A DNA stretch of 64,000 nucleotides from Natrononativus amylolyticus (lineage in GTDB: Archaea; Halobacteriota; Halobacteria; Halobacteriales; Natrialbaceae): assembly GCF_024362525.1 (NCBI RefSeq), contig NZ_CP101458.1, positions 2,418,001-2,482,000 of the forward strand. Reading direction: 5' to 3'. Below are positions 13,079-56,606 of the stretch, in pieces. Position 1 is the first letter of the stretch. Each line of letters starts with the position of its first letter. The notes beneath the pieces were generated by a model, which had not been told where the DNA came from, searched no databases, and saw only the letters and a program-made list of their open reading frames with translations. The translations under genes were made by a program, and so were the position numbers.

Positions 13079-13486
13079 TCCTATCGACCGCCGGTAGAAG
13101 CTAACGTATACCCTAATCTTTGTTATGGAGAGCGGACAGCCCGACTGCGGGTCGTCCCGGCTGTCCCTTTTATCCACCCCCAATTAATTCGAATTCAGCC
13201 GAGAGAATATATCCTTTTGTCGCCGATGAATTGGCCCTTTCGGGCGTTCTGAAACCGTTTCACCGCGTTCGGCGCGTAAAACGCGCTTCTCGAGACGACC
13301 CGGGTGCCAGCGGCCGCCGGCAGATCGACGCGCCCGTGTCATCGTGCAGACGGGTGCTAGCGACCATTACTCGAGTTCCACCGACAGCAGCCCCACCTTA
13401 CAGCCGGGGAGAGCGGCTCCGGGCACCCGTCTCGACGGACGTCGGCGAACGAAACAGTTACCGCTTCGAATCGAGATGTGAGGGCC
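13079..13486. other. 408-base divergent intergenic region
   Basis: This lies between the repeat-protein gene (minus) and the S9 peptidase gene (plus). It holds several AT-rich stretches (13110-13125, 13178-13222) that could be promoters for either direction, including AGAATATATCC near 13205. No convincing gene is visible on either strand. The 300 bases nearest the peptidase are GC-rich and featureless to my eye. Confidence 0.5.
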
Positions 13487-15346: not shown

Positions 15347-15418
15347 CTCGAGAGCGGGCTGGCGGCATCCGTCTCCGTTTCTGCTGCGTTCAAGAGGCGT
15401 CGGCTCGTTACCGGCGGT

Positions 15419-42065: not shown

Positions 42066-44193
42066 GGCGAATCACCTCGCCGGCGGCGAACTCGAACTGG
42101 GACCGGACCGCCTCGACGAGGTCGTCGTCGACGTCACCCTCGGCGAGCAGGACGGCGATCTCCTCGAACAGCGCCTCCGTCTCGGCGAGATCGGCCTCCC
42201 CGCCGGTGCTCGCCTCCCGAAGCACCCGCTCGAGTTCGCCCCGCGGCTCCTCGAGCACCGCCACGAGGGCGTTCGCCTCGCCGTAGATGGCGGCCCGAGC
42301 GTGGGTCTCGACGTCCTCGAGGGAGAGCCCCGGCGCCGCCTCGAGCGCCCGGAGGTAGCGCGACTCCTCGTGGGTGCGCCGCAGGCCGCCGTCGTCGCGC
42401 TCGTACGAACAGCAGTAGAGAGCCGTCCGCGCCGCCCGCGAGCCGATCGCGAGCCGGCGACGAGACCGCTGGGCGTGGTAGTGTTCGAACGGGTCGCCGA
42501 CGTCCTCGAGATCGGCGACCGGGGCGAACGTGTCGACGACGTCGGCCGCCGAGGGGTTCGTGACGGCGGGGTACGCCGGCATCGCCTTCAGCCACGCCGT
42601 GGGAAACAGCTGAGTGAGAAACTGCTCGCCCGGGTAGTTGTCGTCGGTCAGGTCGAGCAGGAACACCGCCTCCCTGGAGTCGTACTTCAGGTCGTCGATC
42701 GGACAGACCGCGACGCCGCCGGCCGGAGCGTCGGTCTCGACGGCGTGGACGTACGGCGCGTCGTACTCGATAGTGTTCCGGAGCATCCGCGCCAGCCCCT
42801 GCCAGTCGGGGGCGACGAGGTCCGTCCGCTCGACGAACCGGGCGATCTCGAGGATTCGACGGACGCTCTCGAACTGTTCCCGGGCGTCGACCCAGTCGGC
42901 GTCGGCGGCGATCCGTCCCTTCAGGTCGGTGCGAACGATCCAGCGCTGGAGCGACCGCGAGACGCTCGCGTCGGCACACTCCTCCAGCAGCGCCGGCGAG
43001 AACCCCGGGACGCGCGCCTCGAGGCGGCGACGAGCGATTTCGATCTCGGGGTCGTCCGCGCGGCGCTCGCAGTTGAGAACGACGAACGCGTAGAGCTCGT
43101 TTACCGCCGGGTCCTCCGCGAGGGAGGTGGTGCCGACCGCTGCCGTCGGGAGCCCGGCCTCGCGAAGCCGCTTGCGAACCTCGGGAACGCGTTCGATACG
43201 CGCCACCGCCACCGCGACGTCGTCGTAGCGCCAGTCGTGCTCGTCCCGCAGCGACTGGATCTCGGTCACCACCCGTCGGCTCTGCTCGCGGGCCGTTCGA
43301 GCCCGGATCCGGCGGATGGCGCGAGCCGGTTCGGCGCGGGTTTCGAGCCCGGAGGACTCGCCGGTCGCGAGAAATCGGGTGAGCGGCTGTCGAGACGCCG
43401 CGTCGGCCCGGTCGAGGACCTCGACCGTCAGCCCGTCCGCGAGGTCGTCGAGGCGGCCGGGCTCGACGCGCGTGCGCTCGACGCTCGCGTGGCGTTCGCC
43501 GAGACAGACGAGTTCCGCCCCGCCGGCGAGCGCCGCGAGGTACCGCCGGTCGAGTTCGCGAAACTCCTCGAACTCGAGGGCGAGGACGGCGTCGAACGAC
43601 GAGCACACCCGGCTCCGGACCCCGTCGGTGTCGGCCTCGAGCAGGTCGACCGCGCGCGGAACGACGTCGGCTCGTTCGACGAACCCGCGGTCGGCGATCT
43701 CGGCGTGAAACCGCTCGTTGATCGCGTACAGGTAGTCGAGACACGGGTGTGGCTCCTCGAGGTCGTCCCGCCGAAGCCGCTGACGGGTCACCTCGAGTAA
43801 CAGCTGTCCCACGTCGCGGGCGAACGACTCCTGGCGTCTGGCTCGCTCGAGATACCGCGGCCGGTCGCGTTTCGCCCCGTCGATCACCAGCGAGATGAGT
43901 TCGATCCGTTCTTCGTACTCGAGCCGTTCGAGGGTCGGATCGTACTCCTCGAGCACCTTCGAGGCGTGTTCTGGCAGCGACTCGAGGCGGGGCGCGCCGG
44001 TCGGACCGGCCGCGGACGCAAGCGCGGCCTGCACGCGCTCGAGTCCGGCCGGGTGGCGTTTCACCACGAGCACGTTGCGCGCGCCGTACGCCTCGGCGAG
44101 CGTCGCGTACTCCGCCGAGACGAGCGAGAGCAGTTCCGGGTGTGGCACCGGACAGAGCTTGAGCGTGCCCTCGAGCGGCGGCGGTTCGGTCAT
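42058..44193 (-). CDS. AddB/RecC-like inactivated helicase
   Basis: A 711-residue protein with the overall look of a UvrD-fold half-molecule but no Walker A: the position that should carry GxxGxGKT reads LKLCPVPHPELLSLV. C-terminal helicase-like motifs remain, notably VAVCPIDDLKYDSREAVFLL and DLTDDNYPGEQFL, as in AddB where the corresponding segment ends in a zinc- or Chi-reading fold. In AddB the Fe-S nuclease follows on the same chain; here it is the next gene. First gene of the operon; the ATG at 44193 follows a TATA-like TTTAAA at 44219-44224. Confidence 0.7.
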   Translation of the reverse strand: MTEPPPLEGTLKLCPVPHPELLSLVSAEYATLAEAYGARNVLVVKRHPAGLERVQAALASAAGPTGAPRLESLPEHASKVLEEYDPTLERLEYEERIELISLVIDGAKRDRPRYLERARRQESFARDVGQLLLEVTRQRLRRDDLEEPHPCLDYLYAINERFHAEIADRGFVERADVVPRAVDLLEADTDGVRSRVCSSFDAVLALEFEEFRELDRRYLAALAGGAELVCLGERHASVERTRVEPGRLDDLADGLTVEVLDRADAASRQPLTRFLATGESSGLETRAEPARAIRRIRARTAREQSRRVVTEIQSLRDEHDWRYDDVAVAVARIERVPEVRKRLREAGLPTAAVGTTSLAEDPAVNELYAFVVLNCERRADDPEIEIARRRLEARVPGFSPALLEECADASVSRSLQRWIVRTDLKGRIAADADWVDAREQFESVRRILEIARFVERTDLVAPDWQGLARMLRNTIEYDAPYVHAVETDAPAGGVAVCPIDDLKYDSREAVFLLDLTDDNYPGEQFLTQLFPTAWLKAMPAYPAVTNPSAADVVDTFAPVADLEDVGDPFEHYHAQRSRRRLAIGSRAARTALYCCSYERDDGGLRRTHEESRYLRALEAAPGLSLEDVETHARAAIYGEANALVAVLEEPRGELERVLREASTGGEADLAETEALFEEIAVLLAEGDVDDDLVEAVRSQFEFAAGEVIRRE

Positions 44194-44616
44194 CTGTCAC
44201 GGAGTAGTGACTGTCTCGTATTTAAAGGTGTGGACGGAACGAGGTGGGGTCGACCGCGGGCGTTCGCCGCCATCAGTGCAGTTGTGGGGACCCGAGAGAG
44301 AGAGAGTGGAAGGACGGTGGAAGACGGCGAAAAGGACTACCACGTCCGTCAGGTGCTGCACGTACTCGAGACCACCGACGGAACCAGCTGAGCGACCGGC
44401 GTCTCGGCGAGACGGGTATCGGAACAACTGAAACGGGTTACACTCTGCTCGCACGCGACGCCCGAAATCGGGCGCGGTGGGGCCGGCTTCGGGCGAGCCT
44501 GCGCGAGCAGGTGTGTACTGAGTTTCAGTGGCTACTATCGCTATCCGGGGCTGAAGAGTCCAGTTACACGTCAGCTCACCCCGGTACTTAACCCGTTCAG
44601 GCCGAACCCATAAGGT
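44194..44616. other. 423-base divergent intergenic region
   Basis: Upstream of both the recombination operon (minus) and the first HTH regulator (plus). The minus-strand promoter candidate is TATTTAAAGG near 44218-44227; the plus-strand candidate is TACTTAACCC near 44584-44593, about 28 bases before ATG 44617. Short frames on both strands in between lack haloarchaeal coding character, and I see no gene. Confidence 0.5.
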
Positions 44617-45279
44617 ATGAGTGTCGTCGCCGAGTTTTCCGTTGCAGCGGACGATTTCGCGCTGTATCACTCCCTGACGGCGGCGCCGGATATGATCGTC
44701 GAGATCGAACGCGTCGTCGCCACACTCGAGGACCGAGTGATGCCGTATTTCTGGGTTAGCGGCGGCGATCAGGCGGGGTTCGAAGACGCGTTTCACGAGG
44801 ATTCGTCCGTCCACAACATCTCCGATATCGACGAGGTCGAGGGGGCCAGACTGTACCGTGCCGAGTGGACCGAAAACGTCGAGTCGATCGTCTACGCGTA
44901 CACCGAGATCGGTGCAACGATCCTTCGAGCGATCGGCCGAGACGAAAGCTGGGAACTGCGAATGCGGTTCGACGATCACGAATCGCTCGGCGATTTCCAG
45001 GGGTACTGCGAAGAACGGGAGATTTCGTTCGAACTCAAGAGCCTCAAAGAACAGGAACAGCCGATGGCGAGCGCCCAGTACGATCTCACGCCGAAGCAGC
45101 GCGAAACGCTGGTCACGGCACTCGAGGCGGGATACTACGAGGTTCCACAGAAGGTGACGATGAGCGAGTTAGCCGACGAGCTGGGGGTTTCACAACAGGC
45201 GCTTTCCAAACGGTTTCACGCCGGCCACAGGAACCTCATCACGAGTACGCTGACGATCAGTCACCCCGAAGACACGTAG
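44617..45279 (+). CDS. Bat-type HTH_10 transcriptional regulator
   Basis: A 220-residue DNA-binding regulator of the bacterio-opsin-activator group. The C-terminal HTH_10 domain reads LTPKQRETLVTALEAGYYEV (about 155-174) followed by MSELADELGVSQQALSKRF (about 180-198). The N-terminal 145 residues form the Bat-associated alpha/beta sensor-like region without a PAS or GAF domain. It is likely a local activator or repressor with an unknown signal. A close homologue follows 92 bases downstream. A TATA-like TACTTAACC about 28 bases before the ATG suggests a leaderless transcript. Confidence 0.85.
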   Translation: MSVVAEFSVAADDFALYHSLTAAPDMIVEIERVVATLEDRVMPYFWVSGGDQAGFEDAFHEDSSVHNISDIDEVEGARLYRAEWTENVESIVYAYTEIGATILRAIGRDESWELRMRFDDHESLGDFQGYCEEREISFELKSLKEQEQPMASAQYDLTPKQRETLVTALEAGYYEVPQKVTMSELADELGVSQQALSKRFHAGHRNLITSTLTISHPEDT

Positions 45280-45371
45280 CGGTTCTGCAGGGCACCCGGA
45301 ATCGTCAAAGGGGGTAGTGAATACAACCCTCACGGGTATTCGTGCGGGTGTAGTACCGAACAGGCGTCACC

Positions 45372-46067
45372 ATGACACTCGTAGTAGAGTTTCGTGTTCC
45401 GGCGCACGAAACCGCCCTCGGAGCGACGTTTGAGCGGATTCCGGAACTGAGATGTGAGATGGAACAGGCCATCACGGATCCGATTCCCGGGTTCTGGTTT
45501 CAGGGGCCGACACGGACCGCACTCGAGGCAACGTTCGATAGCGATCCAACCGTCGAAGCCTATTCGCGGGTCGTCTCCGACGAGCACAGATCGTTGTACG
45601 ACCTGGAGTTCACCGACGACGTGTGCGAGCTGGTGTCCATCGTCCTCGAGGATGGCGTCGTGCTCGACCTCTCAGCGGTACGGGGAACGTGGTCGTTCCA
45701 CGGTCGATACCCGTCCCACGAGAGCGCGAGTCGAACGTACGATCGGCTCGTCGAATACGGTACTGCGGTCGACGTCGCCAAATTACGAGGGATCGAACAC
45801 TCGAACGATGGACACACGCTGACGGAGGAGCAGCAAAAAACGCTCCAGACCGCTATCGAACACGGCTTCTTCGAAATTCCGCGGGGAATCACGATGGAAG
45901 AGCTAGCGGCGCGACTCGATATTTCACACCAGGCGGTCTCCGAGCGACTCCGGCGGGCCTACAAAGCGATGGCTACGGATCAACTGGGCCAGAACGGGAA
46001 GCGGGATACTGACTCCGCCACGTCTGTCCGCGCTGTCACGACGGAAGTCGAAGCCTCCGACTGCTGA
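45372..46067 (+). CDS. Bat-type HTH_10 transcriptional regulator (paralogue)
   Basis: A 231-residue regulator with the same architecture as its upstream neighbour: a sensor-like N-terminal region starting MTLVVEFRVPAHETALG and a C-terminal HTH_10 domain (LTEEQQKTLQTAIEHGFFEI, then MEELAARLDISHQAVSERL near 175-193). A weakly conserved tail follows. The two genes look like an old tandem duplication. Sequence identity is moderate, so their targets may differ. Confidence 0.85.
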   Translation: MTLVVEFRVPAHETALGATFERIPELRCEMEQAITDPIPGFWFQGPTRTALEATFDSDPTVEAYSRVVSDEHRSLYDLEFTDDVCELVSIVLEDGVVLDLSAVRGTWSFHGRYPSHESASRTYDRLVEYGTAVDVAKLRGIEHSNDGHTLTEEQQKTLQTAIEHGFFEIPRGITMEELAARLDISHQAVSERLRRAYKAMATDQLGQNGKRDTDSATSVRAVTTEVEASDC

Positions 46068-46187
46068 GGGCGGCGGCTACAGCACCGCGGGCGTCCAGCG
46101 GGCTTACGCCAGCGCCGTCGGACGACCACTACCCTCGAACCGTGGTACGACGAGAACCGCGCGTGGCGTGCGACTGCGTCTCCGAGG

Positions 46188-46793
46188 CTACCCGCCGAGC
46201 AGGTCGGCCCCCGTCCCGTCCGAATCGAACGTTTCGGTGGACCTGTTCCCGTTGGTGAACGTTACACGCACCGTCTCGGGGGACCACGAGTCGCGAACTC
46301 GAATCAATCGCGCCTGTGGAGCCCACACGTTGTCGAACCCGACCCGGCGAATACAGACGTAACAGTGAACCGATCGGCCTTCTCGAACGACGTGTGTGAC
46401 TCGGGGGTCCGAAGACTGGCTGGCCGAGCCGACGAGAACGCCGACGAGGATCGAGTCGTCGAAATCGGTCGTCTCGATGAACGCACGCTCGGCGGAGGTG
46501 AGTTCGATGTCCTCGTAAAACCGGCGGCCGTCCGAGGAGAGTTCTTCATCCCGGTGCGTTTCGACGTCGTCGGGGGTCGGCGGTTCGAGCCGCTCGACGT
46601 GAGCCGCCTCCGTCGCCAGCACCGTTCCCCGGTAACTGTACCAGCGTTTCACCGACGAAAACTCGAGCGTGTCGAAATCGAGCCGATCGGCGCGAAACGA
46701 CGGTCGGGAACAGAGCGTCGGCAGTCCGGCACACCCCGAGACGGCCATCGCTCCGGCGGCGGCGAGGAGAGCGCGTCGTCGTATACGTGACAT
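46188..46793 (-). CDS. Tat-exported lipoprotein, function unknown
   Basis: A 201-residue protein. The N-terminus MSRIRRRALLAAAGAMAVSG contains a twin-arginine run and a hydrophobic core, followed by the lipobox cysteine in SGCAGLP (Cys21); haloarchaeal lipoproteins are exported this way. The mature part is acidic and holds two further cysteines in HCYVCIRRVGFDN, which could form a disulfide. No family recognised. Same strand as the next lipoprotein gene upstream (28-base gap), so the two are probably cotranscribed. Confidence 0.7.
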   Translation of the reverse strand: MSRIRRRALLAAAGAMAVSGCAGLPTLCSRPSFRADRLDFDTLEFSSVKRWYSYRGTVLATEAAHVERLEPPTPDDVETHRDEELSSDGRRFYEDIELTSAERAFIETTDFDDSILVGVLVGSASQSSDPRVTHVVREGRSVHCYVCIRRVGFDNVWAPQARLIRVRDSWSPETVRVTFTNGNRSTETFDSDGTGADLLGG

Positions 46794-46821
46794 GGTATGT
46801 CGTGGTGTGTTTCGTCTGCGT

Positions 46822-47451
46822 TCACTCCTCTCGAGCGAGCGCCCGCTGGCCGGGCAGCGTCCGGACCATCGAATCCTCGATTTCGTACTCTCGACCGACG
46901 AACCCCTCCGATACGAACGTCGCCTCGAGATCGACGTGGAGGTCGAACGACTCGTCGTCGTAAACGGCGAGCAGCAGTTCGAACCCGACCGAACCCTGGC
47001 CCTGAAAGCCCACGTCAGGGACCGCTAACACCGTCGTTTCGTGGTCCTCCCCTCGAGAGAACTGAATCGGCTCCCAGGGGTAGCCGCCGGGTCGCTCGAG
47101 GTAGAACTCGGGTGCGGTACGGACGGCGTCGGGGCGAAACGTGTACTCGAGACTCTCGAGTACGAGCCCCTCGCCGTGCCAGATATTGGTCCGGATCGGA
47201 TACCGGTACTCGTCGGCGGCGTGTCTCGAGAAGTCGGAGAGGGATACGGAGATCACGCGGTCGTCCCCGTCGTAGTAGGTGTGGGAGGTCGCGTGCGCTT
47301 CGTCGTCGACGGCCGGATCGCGAAGCGTCCGACTGCGAAGGTCGGCACACCCCGCAAGCGCTGCCGTGCAGCCACTCCCCGTAACCGCTAACAGGTGCCG
47401 CCGAGAGACGGTAGGATCGGAGGACTCGAGTATCCGGTTTCGGGATACCAT
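46822..47451 (-). CDS. Tat-exported lipoprotein, function unknown
   Basis: A 209-residue protein. The signal region TVSRRHLLAVTGSGCTAALA (twin Arg at about 17-18) leads to the lipobox LAGCADLRS (Cys about 35). The mature domain is beta-rich, with paired strands such as RVISVSLSDF and VGFELLLAVYDDESFDLHVD, suggesting an immunoglobulin-like fold. It resembles haloarchaeal DUF8121-type lipoproteins, though that assignment is from memory. First of a two-gene lipoprotein operon. Confidence 0.7.
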   Translation of the reverse strand: MVSRNRILESSDPTVSRRHLLAVTGSGCTAALAGCADLRSRTLRDPAVDDEAHATSHTYYDGDDRVISVSLSDFSRHAADEYRYPIRTNIWHGEGLVLESLEYTFRPDAVRTAPEFYLERPGGYPWEPIQFSRGEDHETTVLAVPDVGFQGQGSVGFELLLAVYDDESFDLHVDLEATFVSEGFVGREYEIEDSMVRTLPGQRALAREE

Positions 47452-47481
47452 CGCTACCTCTGTTTTCTTACTGTTTTCTAA

Positions 47482-47847
47482 TCACTCTTTCTACAGATTC
47501 GGTGGTCGAGGGACGCCACGTCCGCCACGAATCGGACTCTCGAGCGGGCGAGCTGGCACGATGCCCGCTTTGGGAGCGGAACGCCGGTCGAAATCAAGAG
47601 TACGATGCTCGAGCACTCGGACGGCCAGCCGGGGAATTTTAAGGTGTACAGGGCGTATCACGACCGACTCCGGCGAGCGGACGGCTGGTACTGCTTCGTC
47701 GTCTATCGCCCACACGGTCGTTCCGGCTGTACGGTTCTGAAAGACCGGATGTGCAAAGCCTCGAGACTCCCGTTACTTCGCTGGCATGGTGGTGGCGATC
47801 ACCGGGAGACTCAACAGGCAAAGATAGTGATCACGGATATTTTCTAG
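47482..47847 (+). pseudogene. fragment of a virus/plasmid-type PD-(D/E)XK-like protein
   Basis: An open frame from the TAA at 47479 to TAG at 47845 with no start codon before ATG 47605. The residues before that ATG are clearly part of the protein: ASWHDARFGSGTPVEIKSTM, then DGQPGNFKVYRAYHDRLR, WYCFVVYRPHGR and LRWHGGGDHRETQQAKI. The VEIKS motif has the E-x-K of PD-(D/E)XK nucleases, and similar proteins occur in haloarchaeal viruses and plasmids. The N-terminal half is missing, so I call it a remnant. It lies just outside the integrated element. Confidence 0.6.
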
Positions 47848-48307
47848 CGGTTATATCCACTGGTACACTCAGGTTTAATACAAATCACGCTGAGTATTCT
47901 GGTGCCGTTGCGCGTGTGTTCCCCCACCACACCTACTTCGGCACCCCACACCTCACTCCCCCCCTTTCGGTCGCTTTTGGTAGTCGTCCCCCTTTCTCGT
48001 GAGTGAGTTTCGACGTCGAAGGTCACGGCTCGAGTGCTCACCGTCTCGGCGATCTCCCGGCGCTGCCGTTCGGTGAGGTCGTCGCGCTCGAGGACGCAGC
48101 GAGCTGTACGAAGTAGTGCGGATTGATCGCCTCGTCTCGCTCGGCGCTGCGACTGGTAGGGCTTCAAATCCAGCATTGACGATAATTTGCGTCGCTCACG
48201 AGTTGTTCACGACGCAGAATTATGGACTCGCTGGGACTGAGCAATCCCTCTGGGATTGCGATGTACAGCGAGTCCACGACTGAACGAGCGAAGCGATGTG
48301 AAGAAGT
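47848..48307. other. 460 bases of degenerate accessory DNA before attL
   Basis: No intact gene. A minus-strand frame (47844-48176) has a helical-looking stretch (LLRTARCVLERDDLTERQRR) but a poor C-terminal half, and may be the remnant of a gene. The right end contains the nested palindrome at 48223-48276. The stretch is probably a scar of earlier integrations at the same tRNA. Confidence 0.45.
48223..48276. repeat. nested perfect inverted repeat made from att sequence
   Basis: Outer arms TGGACTCGCTG (48223-48233) and CAGCGAGTCCA (48266-48276) are perfectly complementary, and the left arm equals the first bases of the tRNA-Ala att core. Inner arms GCAATCCC (48241-48248) and GGGATTGC (48252-48259) are also perfect, with a 3-base loop. 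The whole forms a 54-base hairpin with one internal loop, 31 bases left of attL. Confidence 0.9.
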
Positions 48308-48325
48308 GGACTCGCTGGGATTTGG
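48308..48325. other. attL, 18-base copy of the tRNA-Ala 3' end
   Basis: TGGACTCGCTGGGATTTG is identical to 56535-56552, the discriminator, acceptor 3' strand and part of the T arm of the tRNA-Ala gene (read from its 3' side). Identity stops after this point. The integrase gene begins 124-148 bases to the right, as expected for an element that integrates into a tRNA 3' end. Confidence 0.88.
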
Positions 48326-48448
48326 AACGCCTCGGCGCTACGCACCTCGGCAACCGCAAAAGGGGCCTTCCGCCTCCGCTTCGCTCCGGCGCAACAGCAA
48401 ATCAAGCGTTTCGGTGATCCACTGACCCGGACTCTCTCTCCCTTCCCG

Positions 48449-49480
48449 ATGAGTAGCTATCAAACAGCAACCATGACAGACCTTGACTCACTCCGACCGG
48501 AGAAGGCAGTTGAGATGTACCTGACGAATAGAGAAGACGAACTCACCAAGAAGTCCCTACAAAATAACCAATCCGACCTGAGAGTTCTCAAAGAGTGGAC
48601 AACCGAGCGCGGAATTGACAACATGAACGACGTTGACGGAAGGGCGCTCGTTGACTTCCGGAATTGGCGAGCGGAACAGGTGAAACTGATCACTCTCAAG
48701 CACAATCTCTGGACGATTAAGAAGTTTATCCGATTCTGTGAGAAGATTGACGCTGTAGCTGAGGGAACGAGTGAGAAAGTCGTGATCCCCAAAACTGACG
48801 ATTCTCACGAAGTCAACAACTCGTTCATAGAATCCGGAAGGGCGACGGATATACTCGAGTTTCTCGGAAAATTCGAGTACGCTTCCCTGCGGCATACGGT
48901 GTTCTTTACGCTATGGCACACTGGCATCCGCAGTAGTTCGCTCCTTGCACTTGATCTCAAAGACTTCCACCCCGAAGAGAACAAGCTTTGCATCCGTCAC
49001 CGCCCTGAGAAGGGAACCGCGCTCAAGAACAAGGAACGCGGAGAGCGGAACGTATTCATCAAAGACGAACTCGTGGAAGTGATCAGCGATTACGTCAACG
49101 AAAACCGCGCTACCGTGTTGGACGATCACGGACGGGAGCCGCTCTTCGCTTCAACAGACACTCGAGTATCTCGGACCACCGTTCAACGGATGGTATACAC
49201 TGCCACACGCCCATGTCACATAGGTAATGAGTGTCCGCATGACGAGAATCCGGAGACGTGTGAGGCTAACTCATACAACGGAGCTTCCAAATGTCCGTCA
49301 TCACTCTCACCGCATCCGCTCCGGAAAGGGTCAATCACTCACACGCTCAACCAGGACACTCCGAAAGACGTGATCAGCGACCGCATGGACGTAAGCAAAG
49401 AGATTCTGGATAAACATTACAACAAGCAGACCAAAGACGAACAAATGGAAACGCGAAAGCAATATCTCGAGGGAATTTAA
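48449..49480 (+). CDS. tyrosine recombinase / integrase
   Basis: A 343-residue site-specific recombinase. An N-terminal SAM-like core-binding domain spans about 10-115. Catalytic residues: Arg in WHTGIRSSSLLAL (about 155), HPLRKGSITHTL (His-x-x-Arg, about 291) and the nucleophile Tyr in DKHYNKQ (about 323). Between the two arginine motifs is a cysteine-rich insert (CHIGNECPHDENPETCEA and SKCPSS) typical of haloarchaeal integrases and probably zinc-binding. It would integrate and excise the surrounding element at tRNA-Ala. An ATG at 48473 (MTDLDSLRPEK) is an equally good start. Confidence 0.93.
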   Translation: MSSYQTATMTDLDSLRPEKAVEMYLTNREDELTKKSLQNNQSDLRVLKEWTTERGIDNMNDVDGRALVDFRNWRAEQVKLITLKHNLWTIKKFIRFCEKIDAVAEGTSEKVVIPKTDDSHEVNNSFIESGRATDILEFLGKFEYASLRHTVFFTLWHTGIRSSSLLALDLKDFHPEENKLCIRHRPEKGTALKNKERGERNVFIKDELVEVISDYVNENRATVLDDHGREPLFASTDTRVSRTTVQRMVYTATRPCHIGNECPHDENPETCEANSYNGASKCPSSLSPHPLRKGSITHTLNQDTPKDVISDRMDVSKEILDKHYNKQTKDEQMETRKQYLEGI

Positions 49481-49570
49481 CCGACCGCGAGAGTTGCTCT
49501 TCGGGAAGGGGAAGCGCCCATGTCCCGCAGAGTTCCGTTGAGCGCGTCAGTTTGGAGCGTGAGCCGTTTC

Positions 49571-49683
49571 GGTGATCGGTGAGACATGCGCCCCGCCTTC
49601 TCGCGTAACCGCTCAAAGAGAGTGGTATCTTCGTGACGCAATCCCCAGGTCAACACCTCGAGAATCCACCTCCGCAGTGAGCC
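49571..49683. repeat. diverged intergenic repeat modules, left copy
   Basis: Two blocks, each with a counterpart at 50470-50655. Block 1 (49571-49623) contains GATCGGT, CGCCTTCTCGCGTAACCGCTC and AGAGAGT. Block 2 (49619-49683) contains AGTGGTATCTTC and AGAATCCACCTCCGCAGTGA. No coding potential is apparent. The two copies flank the small-membrane-protein cassette. Confidence 0.7.
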
Positions 49684-49755
49684 AAGGTTCCGGAAGGCGA
49701 CGAAGCAATTCCCATATGCACGCAAATTTATACTGTTGTAGAATAACATCTCACT

Positions 49756-49980
49756 ATGGGGATATTCAACTACATCGTCAGTTCGGGAAAATTCTTCATC
49801 GGCATGGGGATCGCGCTCGTGTTCATCATGGTCGGCGTAATGTCGGTCTTCGTCGCCATGTGGGGCGGTGGAGCGGTTGCCGGAGTGATCGGCCTTGTTC
49901 TCATTGTCGTTGGCGGTGGACTTGCTATGTGGGCCGAAGACAGCCGACGAAGCGCCTTCCGGACCCAAGCACGCTACTGA
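49756..49980 (+). CDS. small two-helix membrane protein of the element
   Basis: A 74-residue protein with two strong hydrophobic helices (FFIGMGIALVFIMVGVMSVF, about 13-32, and GAVAGVIGLVLIVVGGGLA, about 39-57) and a short basic tail ending TQARY. No signal peptide cleavage site is evident, so it should stay in the membrane. An AT-rich ACGCAAATTTATACTG at 49718-49733 is a TATA candidate about 28 bases upstream. It is tail-to-tail with another small membrane gene, the stops overlapping by 7 bases. Family unknown. Confidence 0.7.
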   Translation: MGIFNYIVSSGKFFIGMGIALVFIMVGVMSVFVAMWGGGAVAGVIGLVLIVVGGGLAMWAEDSRRSAFRTQARY

Positions 49981-50210
49981 GACGCGATCAGTAGATAAGC
50001 CAGCATAGCAAACGCGAGAATCCCTGCTATCGGGAATAGAACCATCGGGTTTTGTACGAAATATCCGAAGAACCACTCTAAGGCCGTAATCTCATACGTG
50101 GCAGAGAGCAGAACGCCGATAACATACGCACAGACTACGAATACGAGTAGGTACGTGAAATACCGTATCGTCCGTATCCCCTCGAAAGCATCTAACGCGT
50201 CATCTACCAT
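49974..50210 (-). CDS. small two-helix membrane protein of the element
   Basis: A 78-residue protein: a cytoplasmic N-terminus (MVDDALDAFEGIRTIRYF), then helices YLLVFVVCAYVIGVLLSAT (about 20-38) and MVLFPIAGILAFAMLAYLLI (about 56-75). It ends 7 bases inside the 3' end of the convergent membrane gene. The upstream region (50215-50260) is strongly AT-rich and could serve as promoter. No family recognised. Pairing with its neighbour suggests a joint membrane role such as superinfection exclusion or egress, which is only a guess. Confidence 0.65.
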   Translation of the reverse strand: MVDDALDAFEGIRTIRYFTYLLVFVVCAYVIGVLLSATYEITALEWFFGYFVQNPMVLFPIAGILAFAMLAYLLIASQ

Positions 50211-50731
50211 GATCTAATTATGAATACAATGAATTGTGTATTAATAGTATAGATCATGGTGAAAGTATTACTTTCCAACTATTGCGTTCCTATCCCGCAG
50301 TAATCGGTCAGTCACGAAGGGGAGAGTCTCACAACCCGCAAAGTATCGTCAGATTCCGCCGTGAGTCGGTTCGGAGCTTGACGGGAGTATTCGCCCGCCC
50401 TTCCGGAATAACAGCTTGAGCGACCGCAGGGAGCTTTAGAGAGGAATCCGCCCATATACAGACCCGTGGAGTGGTGTCTTCCGGTCGCAACCCCCACCCC
50501 CTGGGCGGTTAGAATCCACTTCCGCAGTGAGCTATTAGTCACGAAGGCGAAGGCGAGCGTCAGTGAGCCGTGAGAGCCGTCAGATTGGTTCGTGTGTAGT
50601 TCCGGGGATCGGTTGGATAGTGCGCTCGCCCTTCTCGCGTGATCGCTCAGAGAGTCGTTAGCTCCCTCAGAATTGAAAATGAAAAAATCCCCGCGTTCCA
50701 GCATAGCGCCGGAGGCGGGGAGGGCTTTCAA
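50211..50731. other. 521-base non-coding region with repeat modules
   Basis: The left part (50211-50280) is AT-rich promoter-like DNA. The remainder is GC-richer and composed of repeat modules shared with other non-coding parts of the element (see 50470-50655). Frames on the minus strand here contain phrases such as SLRKWIL that also appear in the 49480-49690 shadow frame; I read this as DNA-level repetition rather than genes. Confidence 0.5.
50470..50655. repeat. diverged intergenic repeat modules, right copy
   Basis: Block 2 counterpart at 50470-50533 (GAGTGGTGTCTTC ... AGAATCCACTTCCGCAGTGA) and block 1 counterpart at 50604-50655 (GATCGGTTGGATAG ... CGCCCTTCTCGCGTGATCGC). The order of the blocks is reversed relative to 49571-49683. 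A weaker third relative of block 1 lies near 53560-53620. Confidence 0.65.
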
Positions 50732-51184
50732 TTAATCAGCTTCAGCGTGGATAGCAACGTGTTCAGCGGGACTTACAACCTGAAGATTATCCAGGGTATT
50801 CAACCAAGGTACGTTTTGCCGATGGTGAACGTGTTTGCCGTCAAGCTCGGATATATCATCTACAAGCAACGTCGCCATGAGCCGGTGTTCGTAGAACCTT
50901 TTCTGGGATTCACCGTCATTATGCCGGAAACGAACGTAGCCGTCCCGCATAACACGACGATTCGGCGGTTTGTCCAGAACAGACTTGACAGTTTCAAGTT
51001 CCGCAGCTTCCTTTGCTTGATTCCACGAACCGAACCGCTCCCTAATCGCCATATGGCTTGGAGAGTCCGCCTCAGTATCACGTCTCCACGTTTGGTATTC
51101 CCTCCGAACAGGCGACTTTCCGAGATATTCCGCGCAACGTCGGAGAGTCTCAATGCAACGCGCTTCCGTCCATCGGACTGTCAT
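50732..51184 (-). CDS. HNH endonuclease
   Basis: A 150-residue protein. The N-terminal half has two helical motifs (CAEYLGKSPVRREYQTW and MAIRERFGSWNQAKEAAEL) typical of the DNA-binding region of phage HNH proteins. The C-terminal half is an HNH core: HRLMATLLVDD, then GKHVHHRQNVPWLNTLDNLQ and SPAEHVAIH, giving the His-His-Asn-His metal and catalytic set. It would nick or cut DNA, either as a homing-type or a packaging-type nuclease. Its ATG overlaps the stop of the cold-shock-like gene by 4 bases, so the two are translated together. Confidence 0.82.
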   Translation of the reverse strand: MTVRWTEARCIETLRRCAEYLGKSPVRREYQTWRRDTEADSPSHMAIRERFGSWNQAKEAAELETVKSVLDKPPNRRVMRDGYVRFRHNDGESQKRFYEHRLMATLLVDDISELDGKHVHHRQNVPWLNTLDNLQVVSPAEHVAIHAEAD

Positions 51185-51456
51185 TGACCTTCGCTCCCGT
51201 CAGAGACGATCTCAACGTCAGTAGCGGCCCAACCTTCCGCCTCAAGTCGAGCGTCAAGCCGAACCGTTGCACCTGGAACAAATTCGGATTCATGAGCGTC
51301 AGGAATATCCGAGAGGTGACAGAAAACGTCCTTCCAGACTTTTTCTCCGTCAATGTCGAAAACCTGGACGAATCCAAAGTTTCGCTCGCCAAAAGTTTGT
51401 TTTACTTCTCCGATAACGCCTTTTACTTGTCCTTCGTCAATTTCGCTTACAGTCAT
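51181..51456 (-). CDS. cold-shock-domain-like OB-fold protein
   Basis: A 91-residue acidic protein. GVIGEVKQTFGERNFGFVQV, followed by WKDVFCHLSDI, follows the cold-shock domain pattern (G.I..F....FGFI ... DVF.H.S.I), including the aromatic RNP1-like and RNP2-like strands, although the first strand lacks the usual tryptophan. It should bind single-stranded RNA or DNA. It is coupled to the HNH gene by a 4-base ATGA overlap. The leader of this transcript contains the two tRNA-like folds described at 51517 and 51723. Confidence 0.75.
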   Translation of the reverse strand: MTVSEIDEGQVKGVIGEVKQTFGERNFGFVQVFDIDGEKVWKDVFCHLSDIPDAHESEFVPGATVRLDARLEAEGWAATDVEIVSDGSEGQ

Positions 51457-51516
51457 TGTAGAACTTAGCTGTCGCTCATTTCCTTACGAACTCGAAACCG
51501 CAGGAAGGCGACGAAG

Positions 51517-51563
51517 GGCTACCCTCGAGAATCGAACTCAGGCGAGGTTACCAAACAGTAGCC
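51517..51563 (-). ncRNA. tRNA-like mini-fold 1 (acceptor plus T-arm)
   Basis: On the minus strand the outer arms GGCTACT and GGTAGCC pair over 7 bases (one G-U). Directly stacked on the 3' arm is a T-arm-like hairpin with the loop GAGTTCGATTCTC, which matches the tRNA T-loop consensus (G-TTC-R-A-NN-C). Only 15 bases, including TTGGTA, replace the D and anticodon arms. The lower T stem has one mismatch. There is no anticodon arm, so it is not a normal tRNA. Confidence 0.45.
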
Positions 51564-51869
51564 AGAACACAAATTTTGGTACGGAGTCTCTCACTTTTTC
51601 ACGGCGGACCAAGCCGGAAAAAGATCATTGAGAAGCCTTCGGCAAACTCTGACATTTACCAAAGGTGAGAAAACATGACAGAAGACAACAACTGTCTAAA
51701 TTGGGAAGTGATATTTCCCAAGACCCCTGCTCAAGAATCGAACTCGAGTAATACCAATCAGGGGCAAGGTAGATTCTACTAACAGAATTTTCTTTAAGCG
51801 ATTTGGGGTTATTCAACCGCTGTTGTTTAGTAGTGAGCCTCGCGTATTTCACGGTCATCGGCAATTAAA
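51564..51869. other. non-coding leader region of the HNH operon
   Basis: AT-rich DNA between the small-gene string and the cold-shock-like gene. No gene on either strand looks convincing. It holds tRNA-like fold 2 and a 7-base-pair hairpin (51701-51721), and AT-rich promoter-like tracts at 51775-51800. Confidence 0.45.
51723..51765 (-). ncRNA. tRNA-like mini-fold 2 (acceptor plus T-arm)
   Basis: On the minus strand GCCCCTG pairs with CAGGGGT (7 bases, one G-U). It encloses a 6-base-pair T arm CTCGAG-TTCGATT-CTTGAG, with ATTGGTATTA in place of the D and anticodon arms. The T loop is identical to that of fold 1 at 51517-51563. A separate perfect hairpin TTGGGAA-N7-TTCCCAA (51701-51721) follows directly on the 3' side. 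Confidence 0.5.
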
Positions 51870-52034
51870 TCAAATCCGCTCGAAGTATCCGAGATGGTCG
51901 CAAAGGTGCCGGGCGCTCGAGTTACTCACCGTTGCTTCCCGTGGTGTCACGTCAAATTCGGTATCAAGCATTTTTCCGCTTACCTCGTAACGATCAGGGA
52001 CCCCCTCTCCGTCTTTTAGCCTAATTCTCGTCAT
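51870..52034 (-). CDS. 54-residue element protein, unknown
   Basis: A small protein starting MTRIRLKDGEGVPDRYEVSG and ending ARHLCDHLGYFERI. The length and layout (a strand pair, then a helix ending in a G-x-FE motif) resemble small haloarchaeal virus proteins, but I cannot name a family. It starts 14 bases inside the end of the preceding 54-residue gene, so translation is probably coupled. An upstream in-frame ATG at 52094 would add 20 residues antagonistic to that gene and is less likely. Confidence 0.55.
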   Translation of the reverse strand: MTRIRLKDGEGVPDRYEVSGKMLDTEFDVTPREATVSNSSARHLCDHLGYFERI

Positions 52035-52185
52035 TATCGTTTTCGTCCGTTTCGCTCTCGAGCGGATACCTCTCAAGTTTCTCTTCGTCAACATAACTTG
52101 CCTCGAGTTCTTCTTGAATCCGAATCGCCTCCCGCATATCTTCCTCGTTCCGGCTCCGAATTTTATCTAAAAGCGGGTTACTCAT
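52021..52185 (-). CDS. 54-residue acidic helical element protein
   Basis: A short gene starting MSNPLLDKIRSRNEEDMREA and ending SETDENDNDEN. It is predicted to be one long amphipathic helix with an acidic disordered tail. ATG at 52185; TAG at 52021. It overlaps the next gene by 14 bases. Reading-frame choice is supported by the absence of alternative frames here and by the tight packing with its neighbours. Family unknown. Confidence 0.6.
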   Translation of the reverse strand: MSNPLLDKIRSRNEEDMREAIRIQEELEASYVDEEKLERYPLESETDENDNDEN

Positions 52186-52254
52186 GCGATTCTCACCGGC
52201 TTGAGTAACGAGTCAGGAAGGCGACGGTAGCACAACCCGCAATAGTGATCAACA

Positions 52255-52572
52255 TTAGCGCGGATCGAACAGGCTCTTAGCTGCGTCACTGTTAGAGGCT
52301 TTGTGAGGCTCGTCAGAGAGTTTGTAAGACGGAACGCCCGAGGCATCCGCAACTACGAGGCTTGCCGTCAGAATCCGCTTAGCTCGCTCTGCTTGGCGCT
52401 GAGTGTCGCTCTTCTCGAGATTAACCCGAGTGTCTCCCGCAAAGAACTTCTCCCGCTGAGCGCGACTCTCGGGCGTCTCTTCGGTTCTGTGTCCAACGTC
52501 AAGCTCTTCCGCCGCAAGCTCGAGATTCTCTTCCGCAGCCTTGAGTTCCTCGTGCATAGTATGTTCAGCCAT
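52255..52572 (-). CDS. 105-residue acidic element protein
   Basis: Starts MAEHTMHEELKAAEENLELA; the first 40 residues form a helical, Glu-rich region, followed by a mixed-charge segment (QRQAERAKRILTASLVV) and a polar tail ending AAKSLFDPR. It begins one base after the stop of the coiled-coil gene upstream. No family recognised. Likely part of the same operon as 53043-52574. Confidence 0.6.
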   Translation of the reverse strand: MAEHTMHEELKAAEENLELAAEELDVGHRTEETPESRAQREKFFAGDTRVNLEKSDTQRQAERAKRILTASLVVADASGVPSYKLSDEPHKASNSDAAKSLFDPR

Positions 52573-52573
52573 C

Positions 52574-52909
52574 TTATCGGTCCTCGTACGGATTCTCAGT
52601 CATGTAACGATTCTCCGGGCGGCGAGATTCGGGAGTGAAAAATTTCACTTCGTCAGTGAGTTCCAGCATACCCTTCTCCGTTTCGCGCTCGTCGCCTTCC
52701 CGAAGGTCAACTCCGGACTGTTTAGCAACCTGTTCAAGTCGCTCCTGGAGGCGCTCAATCTCTTCCGCGTTCTCACGTCGCTTGCGGAGTTTACGAGCCT
52801 TCATTTTACGTTTCGTCCGTTTGTACTCTTCGAGAGCCTCAATCGCCTCAGCAAGCCGAATAAGGTCATGGCGGTTCTTGCGAATTTGCTCTTCTCGCGT
52901 TAGCGTCAT
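52574..52909 (-). CDS. 111-residue coiled-coil element protein
   Basis: Starts MTLTREEQIRKNRHDLIRLA. Residues about 5-70 are a continuous, strongly basic then acidic coiled coil (EEYKRTKRKMKARKLRKRRE, then AEEIERLQERLEQVAKQSG), followed by a polar tail ending MTENPYEDR. The basic stretch could bind nucleic acid. It overlaps the preceding 45-codon gene by 4 bases (ATGA). No family recognised. Confidence 0.6.
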   Translation of the reverse strand: MTLTREEQIRKNRHDLIRLAEAIEALEEYKRTKRKMKARKLRKRRENAEEIERLQERLEQVAKQSGVDLREGDERETEKGMLELTDEVKFFTPESRRPENRYMTENPYEDR

Positions 52910-53043
52910 TGGTCACCCTCCGCGCTCTGTGCAAGCCGCATTAGGAATCCGTTCCACGTCTCAAACTCACTACGCTCTTCGTCCAGTTTCTCGAAGACTT
53001 CTTGTGCGATACTGATTGAAATTCGGTCGTTGTCGTTACTCAT
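52906..53043 (-). CDS. 45-residue ribbon-helix-helix-like protein
   Basis: Starts MSNDNDRISISIAQEVFEKL and ends NGFLMRLAQSAEGDQ. The beta strand RISISI followed by two helices (AQEVFEKLDEERS and TWNGFLMRLAQ) fits the ribbon-helix-helix fold of CopG-like or DUF7557-like small repressors. First gene of the tiny-gene operon, with 4-base overlap to the next. The perfect 19-base palindrome at 53312-53330 and its relative at 53126 are natural candidate operators. Function as a self-repressor is inferred. Confidence 0.6.
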   Translation of the reverse strand: MSNDNDRISISIAQEVFEKLDEERSEFETWNGFLMRLAQSAEGDQ

Positions 53044-53121
53044 TGTTGTAATTTTCTCCGTAGGCAGCGAACAAGCGTCCAGGCTCTCCGCGCTCCCTCT
53101 ATCACATTGTAAAGGTAACGA

Positions 53122-53236
53122 AGGTTATAAACTTTATATGCCTGGCGAATGAATTGACATATCAACTTTTGGCGTTGTGGAAGTAGAGAGTTCCTTACTC
53201 AATCCGTGAGCGCGTAAGAATGCAATTTGAATCTCG
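53122..53236. promoter_or_regulatory. tandem promoter-like repeat, copy 1
   Basis: Contains TATAAACTTTATATGC (53126-53141), AATTGACATATC (53152-53163), the 18-base block GTTCCTTACTCAATCCGT (53190-53207), GTAAGAATG and TCTCGC. The same series recurs exactly 189 bases to the right. The TATA part is close to symmetrical, so transcription in both directions is possible; the minus direction leads to the tiny-gene operon. Confidence 0.65.
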
Positions 53237-53310
53237 CGCGCATTTCTGTTGAAACTCAATTGAACCTGGATTGCCTTCCCCACTGCCTCTACTAAATAAG
53301 TAATACGCGA

Positions 53311-53425
53311 AGCATATAAACTTTATATGCACGGCAAATGGATTGACATATCCCGTCATACGAAACCCACAGTAGAGGGTTCCTTACTCAATCCGTAGGA
53401 GTGTAAGAATGAAATCCCGATCTCG
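53311..53425. promoter_or_regulatory. tandem promoter-like repeat, copy 2
   Basis: Second copy at 189-base spacing: TATAAACTTTATATGC (53315-53330), ATTGACATATC, GTTCCTTACTCAATCCGT (53379-53396), then GTAAGAATG. Between the copies the conserved blocks are separated by diverged sequence of conserved length. CTTACTC and GAGTGTAAG around the 18-base block can form an imperfect hairpin in this copy. Confidence 0.65.
53312..53330. promoter_or_regulatory. perfect 19-base palindromic TATA element
   Basis: GCATATAAACTTTATATGC is a perfect inverted repeat of nine bases around a central C. It contains a TATA box in each direction, so it could be a bidirectional promoter, a repressor operator, or both. 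Confidence 0.75.
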
Positions 53426-53740
53426 CCCGCGTTTCGCCTGTCGGCTCACTTCCGCATGAAACGATAACCGCATTGGATCACTCGGCTCCGCCTCAGCAAG
53501 TGATCGGAAACCTACCGCCTAACTCGGCTCTTCGAGAAGGCGGAGGGGAATCCATCCGACCGATCACCGGAACCGTGAGAAGCTCGCCCGCTTCCCGACT
53601 GACCGATCACTGCGAAATTCGTAATTTTACCACAATCCACGCTCGAGAAAACAACCCCCATATCAGGTTCGAGATATGTTCTGCATGAGTCCAAACAGGA
53701 GAGTTTAAGTAGGTATAGCCTATGACGCGTTGCTCTCTCT

Positions 53741-54311
53741 CTCAGCGAATCCTTAACGGTTCCTAATGTTCTGAGCGTATCGAAGTGATCCAGCGAACCC
53801 TCGAGTTTCACGCTCAGATTAGACCCCCCTCAGATTCGGCAAGCTCAGTATACTCAAACCCCTGAGAATCGGGGGCAAAATTCGTTTTCACAAAACTCCA
53901 GGGGTCGCGGATACCATGAACCATTTTAGATTGTGAAATAAACCCTAATTCCAACGCCGTACTGCGGTTTTCGGAGGAAACGTTCTATAATGGCAGATGG
54001 TACTGATTCACACGCTCCCTGAACGGTCGCAAAAGCCGCTGAGACGAGCGTAGCGAATAATCGCAAGAGGGAGTCGATCTTCTTTGAGAGCCGCTGAGCG
54101 GACGCTGAGACAATTTCTTTGGACCGGTACGACAAAACCCCTCCCGGAAACATACGGAATCCGCTGAGCGTCCAGCCAGGGCGCTTAGAATCGAAACGTG
54201 TGGGTCGTCACAGCCCTATATCGACCCTCGAACTGAGTTGGGGGTCTTCTGAGGCTCCCTGCGGTCGCTCAGCGGATCGTCAGTGAGTGGTCGCTGAGAC
54301 GAGCGTAGCGA
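53741..54311. other. iteron-like repeat cluster, candidate replication origin
   Basis: CCGCTGAGCG occurs at 54091-54100 and 54161-54170 and inverted at 54266-54275. CGCTGAGAC occurs at 54037-54045, 54103-54111 and 54292-54300, two of these as a 20-base repeat CGCTGAGACGAGCGTAGCGA (54037-54056, 54292-54311). Shorter CTGAG/CTCAG copies lie at 53741, 53771, 53811, 53842 and 53862. No gene spans the cluster. It is flanked on the right by T-rich DNA. Confidence 0.55.
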
Positions 54312-54349
54312 GTTCCCCGACGCCGTCTTGTGATTTAGGGGAGGAAACC

Positions 54350-54430
54350 AAGAAGGAAGAACTTGTTTTGGTTTTCTTTTTGGGTACGTAGTACCTTTTT
54401 CTTTTGTTTTTCTTGAGTTGGTTATTCGGG
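54350..54430. other. T-rich tract with short palindrome
   Basis: A pyrimidine-rich tract (TTTTGGTTTTCTTTTTG ... CCTTTTTCTTTTGTTTTTC) interrupted by GGTACGTAGTACC, a 5-base inverted repeat around GTA. Next to the iteron-like cluster, it would make a natural duplex-unwinding element. Confidence 0.45.
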
Positions 54431-55540
54431 AAGGAGGGGTTGCTGTATACAGCGTTAGTAGTAATTATAAACTCAAGAGTATAACCCTCTCTATAAGTTT
54501 AACATCAGGAAGGGGGAAGCTCAAGACAGGTTTAGACGCATAAGTTGATGCTCAGTAAGTTGATTCTCTATGAGTTTCATCTAAAGGGTGCATCTATTAG
54601 GTTACGCCTTCGCTGACATATCACTCGAAAATCGCAACACAGCGGGCGACCTCTCGCTTCTCTTAGGAATCCATGTTACTACGGTAGCACGGGAAGAACC
54701 ATGATAGATACCAGATGGTGACCCCATTGGAACCTTAAAGGCTTCGGTTTGGAGCCGCAAGGCAGTGATACCATACTAGAAATGATATTGTTGAACATAC
54801 AATCGAGACTCGTTCGGATTGCGGATTCCGTAATCTGTCTGTTGCGGATAGTGTCTGCCTTCGCTTCCTGACCGACAGCTCTCAAATTTCACACATGGTA
54901 TTTTTTCTCGAACGGGGTTTCAAAAATTTACCCCCTTCGCCAGCCCGATAGGGCGCTCACTGTAAAAATTTGGTAGCTGCCAGTCGCTCAGAAAAACACT
55001 TTTTCGCTTAGAGAAATGAAGCCCACTCGAGTTCCAGCGGATGGATAGCGGCTCCCGCTTCCGGATCGGCTACTCGAGGCCGAAGGCAGAAACTATTGCC
55101 TGGAAATATGAGAGTGGGACCGTCAGTTGAGATTAGGTCAGTTAGCCGAATTGAGGGCCATGAAGTTTGGCAAGTCTTTCCGGTTGATAGTACCACGCTT
55201 TCGCATAGATCGCTTTCCTTCGGAGAGGTGACTGAATTAACGCCGGATGGGAGCGCAAGCAAGATTGTTAATAACACTGTAGAGAGTCTTAATAACTCCA
55301 TGCGGCCACCCTATTCGCTCAGCGAGAAAATCAGTCGGTGAGGCGCTCTCCCCTTTCAAATCGACGTCTGTTTATAAGCGGGACCCACACTGACGCGGCT
55401 ACTTCTATCAATTATCAATTGTGTTGGTAGAGCCGTGCTGAATACAGGGCGCGAATGTGGCACTCAGTAGAGCGCGATCTGCGTGAAAGGCCGAACGCTC
55501 AGTACAGGTACGTCATATAAATCTGATATACACTGTAGAG
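54431..55540. other. 1.1 kb of the element without a convincing gene
   Basis: Short frames exist on both strands (for example 55096-55341 plus, and 55008-55301 minus) but none shows start signals, codon bias or a recognisable fold. The plus frame contains EIRSVSRIEGHEVWQVFPVD and could be a small or decayed gene. AT-rich stretches occur at 54455-54520 and 54890-55015. I see no RNA gene. Confidence 0.4.
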
Positions 55541-56014
55541 CTATGGTTCGGTTTTCTCAAATTGATAATCATCACCGTACTCATTTGCTTCGATAGTAGC
55601 GGGGATGCTTTTGTCAAATTCCAATATCACACGATACGCTTCTTCCACTATATCAGCATGGCAATCATCGGCAGTAGAGATGGGTTCAATGCTTACAGTT
55701 ACAGTAAGGGCTCCTTCGGTAGCGTCATAATCTGTTTCACTAAGGGAAACCTCATTGCAATTACTTCCACCATAGGACGTTTTTCCTTCAATTATCACTT
55801 GAGAATTTGATTCTTTGGTAGTAATTGCTGGTGGCTCATCTAACTCCGGAACCGTGTCCCAATCACTGCGCTCAAGAATTTGCAACTCTTCGGCTATGAG
55901 TTCCGAGGGTGGTTCTTTATCATCCTCCAGAGTAGCGGAGCCACTGTCAAGACATCCAGCAGCAGATGGTGAGAGAGCAATTCCCGCCCCTATGAGGACT
56001 GTACGCCGGTTCAT
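55541..56014 (-). CDS. element-encoded lipoprotein, unknown
   Basis: A 157-residue protein. MNRRTVLIGAGIALSPSAAG is a short Tat-like signal followed by the lipobox cysteine in AAGCLDSGS (Cys21). The mature part has two Cys in SNCNEVSL and DDCHADI that may form a disulfide, and strands such as GALTVTVSIEPIS and YRVILEFDK. The ATG at 56014 is preferred over the earlier in-frame start because it places the signal at the N-terminus. It reads toward the element's interior; a surface protein carried by a mobile element often affects host recognition, which is inference. Confidence 0.7.
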   Translation of the reverse strand: MNRRTVLIGAGIALSPSAAGCLDSGSATLEDDKEPPSELIAEELQILERSDWDTVPELDEPPAITTKESNSQVIIEGKTSYGGSNCNEVSLSETDYDATEGALTVTVSIEPISTADDCHADIVEEAYRVILEFDKSIPATIEANEYGDDYQFEKTEP

Positions 56015-56534
56015 GTTCGGAAATATACAATACCTGCATAAATACTTTCTCCGAAGGCATACTGCCATTTGACCAAACTGCACGTTCAGTTCGCAGGTTC
56101 TATACCGGGTAGTTCACGACAGCATGGCTGAAATAAATCGAGTCAGCGTGCTGCACTCATCCTCTGTATTCAGCACGCAGCTTCTGACAGATCCATGGGT
56201 ACCCTCACGCTTTCAGAACCATCTTCCACGGTTCCCTATGAGTTGACTGTTCCGGAAGGGAGAGCCGCGCAAGCCGGGTTGAGTAGATCACGGCTCCGGG
56301 TCAGTGTCCTTCGCCCTCGCCTTCCCGAAGCGTAGCTCACGGCGGAAGGACTAAGTTCAGAAAGGTTAGAGATAATTGTAGCTACCACGGGACGGGACGC
56401 ATGACGGAACACAAAACGATTCAATTGGAAACGGAAGCTGTTGCCGCCAAGTCCCAACGATGGACGAATTTGTACTTAAACGAGAGTGCAAAATCGTACG
56501 CCGTGTTGCGATTGTTGCCGGAGCGCAACGCGCA
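56015..56534. other. right-end region of the element before attR
   Basis: 520 bases with no convincing gene. The part from 56240 to 56360 is GC-richer and shares the style of the other intergenic repeats. Immediately beside the tRNA 3' end lies the inverted repeat GTTGCG (56505-56510) / CGCAAC (56524-56529), a possible terminator for the tRNA transcript. Confidence 0.45.
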
Positions 56535-56606
56535 TGGACTCGCTGGGATTTGAACCCAGGGCCTCTTCCTTGCGAAGGAAGCGATCTGCCACTGATCTAC
56601 GAGCCC
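56535..56606 (-). tRNA. tRNA-Ala (anticodon CGC)
   Basis: Read on the minus strand: acceptor GGGCTCG pairs with CGAGTCC, with the G3-U70 pair that identifies alanine tRNAs. The D-arm region is TAGATCAGTGGCAGATC; the anticodon stem CTTCC-TTCGCAA-GGAAG gives anticodon CGC; the T arm is CTGGG-TTCAAAT-CCCAG. The discriminator is A at 56535; CCA is not encoded. 72 bases. Its 3' end (56535-56552) is the attR repeat, so the gene has been kept intact by the integrated element. Confidence 0.95.

Follow-up and report, generated by a model that had tools for sequence, protein, structure and literature searches.

An integrase-bearing element in the tRNA-Ala(CGC) gene of Natrononativus amylolyticus, with interchangeable cargo and no recognisable replication gene

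The window analysed here is the whole of a 64,000-nucleotide stretch of Natrononativus amylolyticus DNA (assembly GCF_024362525.1, contig NZ_CP101458.1, positions 2,418,001 to 2,482,000), and all unlabelled coordinates refer to it. It contains an island of 8.2 kb bounded by two exact copies of the 18-mer TGGACTCGCTGGGATTTG, the right copy being the 3′ end of an intact tRNA-Ala(CGC) gene. The island is AT-rich, with a GC content of 0.48-0.54 against 0.65-0.74 across most of the window. It carries a tyrosine integrase gene at its left end and a cargo that probably comprises a regulated leftward operon (the ribbon-helix-helix-like p45, small proteins, a cold-shock protein and an HNH nuclease), membrane proteins and a lipoprotein. 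An earlier note on this DNA had described the bounding repeats, the AT-richer island, the intact integrase, the tiny overlapping genes and the HNH/cold-shock pair, and had read them as a tRNA-Ala-integrated element with no recognised replication or virion gene. The attachment (att) pair, the empty sites in relatives and the library scans presented below agree with that description, except that its repeat positions were off by one base.

Across the entire 3.99-Mb genome, the 18-mer occurs exactly at the two att positions only, so the repeat is not common chromosome-wide, one of the circumstances that the earlier note had named as counting against its reading. Near-copies are limited to one with a single mismatch, in the other tRNA-Ala gene (GGC), and four with three mismatches. 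When the two flanks were joined in silico, they matched uninterrupted sites in relatives lacking the insertion, over 225 bp at 90.7% (L086), 170 bp at 87% (L088) and 128 bp at 94.5% (L092), and more weakly elsewhere. Parts of the left flank (47540-47850 and 48010-48096) keep their side relative to tRNA-Ala in several relatives without the element, and the right-side context of tRNA-Ala, rhomboid, ribosomal-protein and EF-1alpha genes, named from our reading of the open reading frames (ORFs), is conserved. The island therefore has two attributes by which a tRNA-targeted element is recognised, namely direct repeats, one of them in an intact tRNA gene, and an empty site in relatives.

The integrase gene is a single intact frame, although its start is likely to be at 48473, as in the sister elements described below, which begin at residue 9. 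Residues R161, H289 and R292, at catalytic positions, are conserved in an alignment that includes the integrase of the virus SNJ2. Among Pfam domains, PF00589 (Phage_integrase) matches above the cut-off and PF02899 just below it. The protein is 42.5% identical to the SNJ2 integrase, and 41-42.5% identical to pleolipovirus integrases, in each case over 96% of its length. A review of this group defines SNJ2-type integrases by an identity of 30% or more to the SNJ2 integrase across 60% of the length, together with SAM-like and Phage_integrase domains (PMC8371274), and the window integrase belongs to the family because its identity and coverage lie within that definition. The two recombination accessory genes that adjoin the integrase gene in SNJ2 had no recognised counterpart next to the window integrase, and no relative of the integrase was found in IMG/VR, whether it was scanned alone or as an alignment.

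Sister integrases were sought in GTDB species genomes and in 391 Halobacteria genomes. Three sister elements occupy tRNA-Ala(CGC), in halophilic archaeon LT46 (L122, 3.8 kb), G332 (L132, 4.5 kb) and G401 (L133, 4.4 kb), with integrases within 77-78% identity. Two others lie on broken contigs that preserve the same att-integrase end, in Halorientalis persicus (L123, integrase 81%) and in a Natrialbaceae metagenome-assembled genome (L126, 76%, partial), while the element of G039 (L106) lies at tRNA-Ala(GGC) and has a 58% identical integrase with a stop codon. On contigs that extend further, the order is always the same: att, an integrase gene reading inward, cargo, a conserved arm and tRNA-Ala. 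The conserved arm consists of ~165 bp to the left of the tRNA and is common to the window element, L132, L133 and L122, and in part to L106. With an orthologous integrase and the same att, layout and right arm, the window element is a member of the tRNA-Ala family so defined.

This family is a fixed integration module (att, integrase and right arm) combined with interchangeable cargo that is mostly unshared. The integrases of L133 and L122 are 94.6% identical, yet beyond the integrase region and right arm no ORF of one matches the other, a pairing that opens cargo exchange to direct study. The same layout recurs with more distant integrases (43-47% identity) at tRNA-Tyr, -Phe, -Val and -Thr (L138, L107, L125 and L147). 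These elements measure 4.8-10.6 kb, and two of them have extra copies of the tRNA end beside the integrase gene. The tRNA-Ala family illustrates a minimal form of cargo movement in archaea: an integrase, its att arms and an exchangeable payload, with no recognisable replication gene.

The absence of such a gene makes an integrase-driven cargo element the most economical reading. The island is very probably an integrated mobile element of this type, without a replication gene of its own and maintained by the chromosome. Under this reading, an SNJ2-type tyrosine integrase would have recombined the 3′ end of tRNA-Ala(CGC) with the attP site of a circular form, a site made up of the ~165-bp right arm, the 18-bp core and a left arm mimicking a tRNA-Ala gene. 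Insertion would have restored the tRNA gene and moved its chromosomal tail to the far side of the element, which would thereafter most likely persist by integration in the host chromosome. Transfer could occur by mating, by transformation or by hitchhiking on a virus or plasmid. The insertion site with its empty counterparts, the layout, the sister elements and the conserved arm are seen directly in the sequences; from these we infer the circular form, its excision, present activity, transfer and any benefit of the cargo.

Several points weigh against this account, beginning with the inferred status of the circular form and of excision. A replication gene of a wholly unrecognised type may be present among the orphan ORFs. 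The L106 integrase is interrupted by its stop codon and that of L123, as we read its translation, passes into transposase-like sequence close to the end of the contig, so that some members of the family appear to be dead. The lowered GC content to the left of the element also suggests earlier insertions there.

The question of replication is where an integrative plasmid has to be considered, that is, an element that replicates on its own by means of an unrecognised initiator, its origin lying in the gene-poor region of 53.4-55.4 kb. That region, 1.9 kb long and containing inverted repeats, has a two-copy 126-bp repeat nearby, and the 6.5-kb tRNA-Ala elements described in the literature, which resemble the island in layout, do possess an alphapleolipovirus replicase (PMC11431627). 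Nevertheless, a plasmid appears unlikely. Among the proteins of the element that were scanned against Pfam, NCBIfam and PHROGs, none matched a replication family, and scans of ten cargo proteins from sister elements gave no replication match in Pfam or PHROGs. No alphapleolipovirus-type replicase was found, the proteins of the leftward operon have no plasmid relative, and no orphan ORF in that operon exceeds 111 amino acids. The iteron-like repeats of the earlier note proved to be two ~126-bp copies spaced 189 bp apart; iterons as such were rejected, no tandem array having been found.

Pleolipoviruses have integrases of the same family, and L132 and L133 have in common one protein of a halovirus family that lies near the integrase in HRTV-7. 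Both observations would fit, indirectly, a virus satellite packaged in the particles of a helper halovirus, but the halovirus-like protein is absent from the window element, and we regard a satellite as distinctly improbable. In IMG/VR, no relative was found for the integrase or for any of five scanned cargo proteins (the cold-shock protein, p105, the HNH nuclease, p111 and p74), and among the window proteins scanned against Pfam and PHROGs there was no spike, VP3-like, ATPase, packaging or capsid match. The same scans bear on a decayed pleolipovirus or other provirus that has retained its integrase. The integrase family, size range and gene-poor stretch of the element are as such a remnant might have them; however, the spike, VP3-like and ATPase genes that characterise Pleolipoviridae proviruses, and any remnant of a replicase, were not found in the scanned proteins, and the sisters are compact and built alike with mostly unrelated cargo. 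We consider this origin highly improbable. At the nucleotide level, the element has no similarity to phages and matches plasmids only through short dispersed repeats.

An integrase-driven cargo element has its closest known counterparts, compared by description, in the ~6.5-kb integrative plasmids at tRNA-Ala of Salinibaculum and Halosimplex, which have the integrase at the far end and a replicase (PMC11431627). Both are compact, with tRNA-Ala at one end, the integrase at the other, a short direct repeat of the tRNA end and no spike gene. Despite this common outer plan, the window element is set apart because it lacks a recognisable replicase: the published elements carry one of alphapleolipovirus type and an R6 ATPase, and it has neither in recognisable form. 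With SNJ2 and other integrase-bearing pleolipoviruses it has in common the integrase family and integration at a tRNA 3′ end with a short att, but none of their spike, ATPase or replicase genes, nor the two SNJ2 accessory genes, was recognised in it. The elements IGE1-3 of Haloferax gibbonsii (PMC7921747) are likewise tRNA-targeted, with a XerC/D-type integrase and a direct repeat of the 3′ part of the tRNA; in contrast to the window element, their integrase adjoins the complete tRNA. The suggestion in the earlier note that this could be a class of integrative plasmid, or of virus satellite, not seen before thus stands in part only. The SNJ2-family integrase is known, tRNA-Ala elements have been published and no replication gene was recognised, while what appears new is a family without such a gene, built on one integration module with swappable cargo.

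The tRNA-like folds reported by the earlier note are real and of two kinds. One is the tRNA-Ala mimic between att and the integrase gene, inside the element; the other comprises tail units at ~48116-48306, outside it. In relatives, these units lie directly downstream of tRNA-Ala: unit A adjoins it at L077, L085, L087, L089, L101 and L112, and unit B is also found at L079, L086, L088, L089, L092 and L096, as well as at the host genome's other tRNA-Ala (L097). The tail is chromosomal, since insertions of elements fall between it and the tRNA, and here the insertion displaced it to the far side of the element.

This position directly downstream of tRNA-Ala led us to examine other tRNA genes, taking as a tail a repeat of the tRNA's own 22-nt 3′ end that agrees at no fewer than 17 of 22 positions and lies within ~330 bp downstream. 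Tails follow 18 of the 40 tRNA genes in the host genome (L150-L189). Rates in the comparison genomes are samples, because only the 20 tRNAs with the highest scores were taken from each: 7/20 and 6/20 in genomes of two other Halobacteria families (L190-L229), and 1/20 and 0/20 in two genomes from other classes of the same phylum. Shuffled controls reached 17 matches once and otherwise 16 at most, and in 29 of 31 tail cases the ends of other tRNAs gave a lower score at that position. The tails are also structured. Their unit has, in order, a hairpin, an inverted T arm (often present), a second hairpin, and a direct repeat of the T arm and acceptor strand of the same tRNA. Folding gave z < -3 for 25 of the 31 (median -4.9; where a tRNA has no echo, the downstream median is -0.9). 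The T arm of the same tRNA recurs inverted, with at least 9 of 11 bases, in 22, and 17 contain tandem G-A mismatches flanked by six or more pairs, in 15 different stem sequences.

At L106 (~12060-16265, reversed locus), the right boundary of the element lies at a tail copy, one unit from tRNA-Ala. This suggests that a tail copy may act as attB, although a later duplication could give the same picture. We propose, tentatively and with more doubt than confidence, that tails are a maintained feature across Halobacteria rather than debris of lost elements; to judge from that boundary, they may serve as spare or decoy attB sites that divert insertions from the tRNA gene. Alternatively, the tail may be a structured RNA trailer. 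A passage on H. gibbonsii mentions ‘Partial tRNAs directly adjacent to the full tRNA’ without explaining them there (PMC7921747). No published description of the tail unit was found in the open-access literature, which is weak evidence of novelty. The tails bear on why haloarchaeal tRNA genes are integration hot spots, and on events downstream of tRNA genes.

Table 1. Features of the element and of its boundaries (window coordinates).
Feature	Position	Strand	Remarks
Tail unit A of tRNA-Ala	48116..48222	minus	Chromosomal, outside element; truncated copy with hairpin and inverted T arm
Tail unit B	48223..48306	minus	Chromosomal, outside element; hairpin of 13-14 bp tRNA 3′-end copy against inverted copy
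Distal att site	48307..48324	none	18-bp copy of tRNA 3′ end; left element boundary
Left attP arm	48325..48445	minus	Degenerate tRNA-Ala mimic, hairpin replacing anticodon; clearest in sister locus L126
SNJ2-family tyrosine integrase	48449..49480	plus	Single intact frame, 343 aa (amino acids)
Small membrane protein, 74 aa	49756..49980	plus	Weak holin-like Pfam match, below cut-off
Small membrane protein, 78 aa	49974..50210	minus	Relative in BREX-5 defence locus
HNH endonuclease with homing-endonuclease-associated repeat (hnh)	50732..51184	minus	PF18780, E = 1.2e-12; HNH PHROG, E = 3.8e-11
Diverged cold-shock-domain protein (csd)	51181..51456	minus	PF00313, E = 1.3e-4, under curated cut-off
Small ORF p74	51870..52094	minus	Orphan; possible inner start 52034
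Small acidic ORF p54	52021..52185	minus	Orphan
Small ORF p105	52255..52572	minus	Orphan
Small coiled-coil-like ORF p111	52574..52909	minus	Orphan
p45, ribbon-helix-helix-like	52906..53043	minus	Weak antitoxin/VapB match PF02697, E = 0.008, below cut-off
Two-copy direct repeat with TATA-like boxes	53119..53435	minus	189-bp spacing
Inverted-repeat-rich stretch of ~1.9 kb without convincing gene	53436..55380	none	Longest stop-to-stop frames ~110 aa
Small lipoprotein gene	55541..56014	minus	Between dispersed repeats 55383-55520 and 56083-56202
Right attP arm	56370..56534	none	Conserved with L132, L133, L122, partly L106
att site within tRNA gene	56535..56552	none	Right element boundary
Intact tRNA-Ala(CGC)	56535..56606	minus	Integration target; tRNA score 68.8 bits

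Within the cargo (Table 1), several genes of the leftward operon overlap: hnh and csd by 4 bp, p45 and p111 likewise by 4 bp, and p54 and p74 too. As its first gene, p45 is likely to encode the regulator of this operon, and the two-copy repeat (53119-53246 and 53308-53435) is, to judge from its sequence, probably a duplicated promoter/operator. Against the 391 Halobacteria genomes, the proteins of the operon had no match with E < 0.005 outside their own genome, and two marginal matches with E > 0.006. In the 53.4-55.4 kb stretch, a search for decayed genes in six of the stop-to-stop frames gave no Pfam match. A defence-system scan of the cargo returned only weak, generic HNH, cold-shock and coiled-coil matches. 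A retron, raised by the cold-shock effector match, was rejected, as no reverse transcriptase was recognised and the match is weak and generic. GCGAAGC mini-hairpins are not enriched in the window (11 seen, ~14 expected).

The 78-aa membrane protein shares 43.8% identity over 73 aa with a small protein of a BREX-5 locus. This relative is encoded on a Halorubrum ezzemoulense megaplasmid (L148, 7998-8249), between pglX and another gene of the BREX-5 locus. The lipoprotein has distant relatives borne on plasmids. One might guess that the cargo serves host-benefit or anti-competitor functions. The dispersed repeats that flank the lipoprotein gene have an inverted GTGCTGAATACAG core, and one or both are present in 75 of 149 related genomes; the pair is perhaps a unit resembling a transposon or miniature inverted-repeat transposable element, nested within the element.

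Beyond the left boundary, GC content is lowered to 0.59-0.65 across 44000-48200, possibly an older island. Two adjacent genes for secreted lipoprotein-like proteins (46188-46793 and 46822-47451) are located there.

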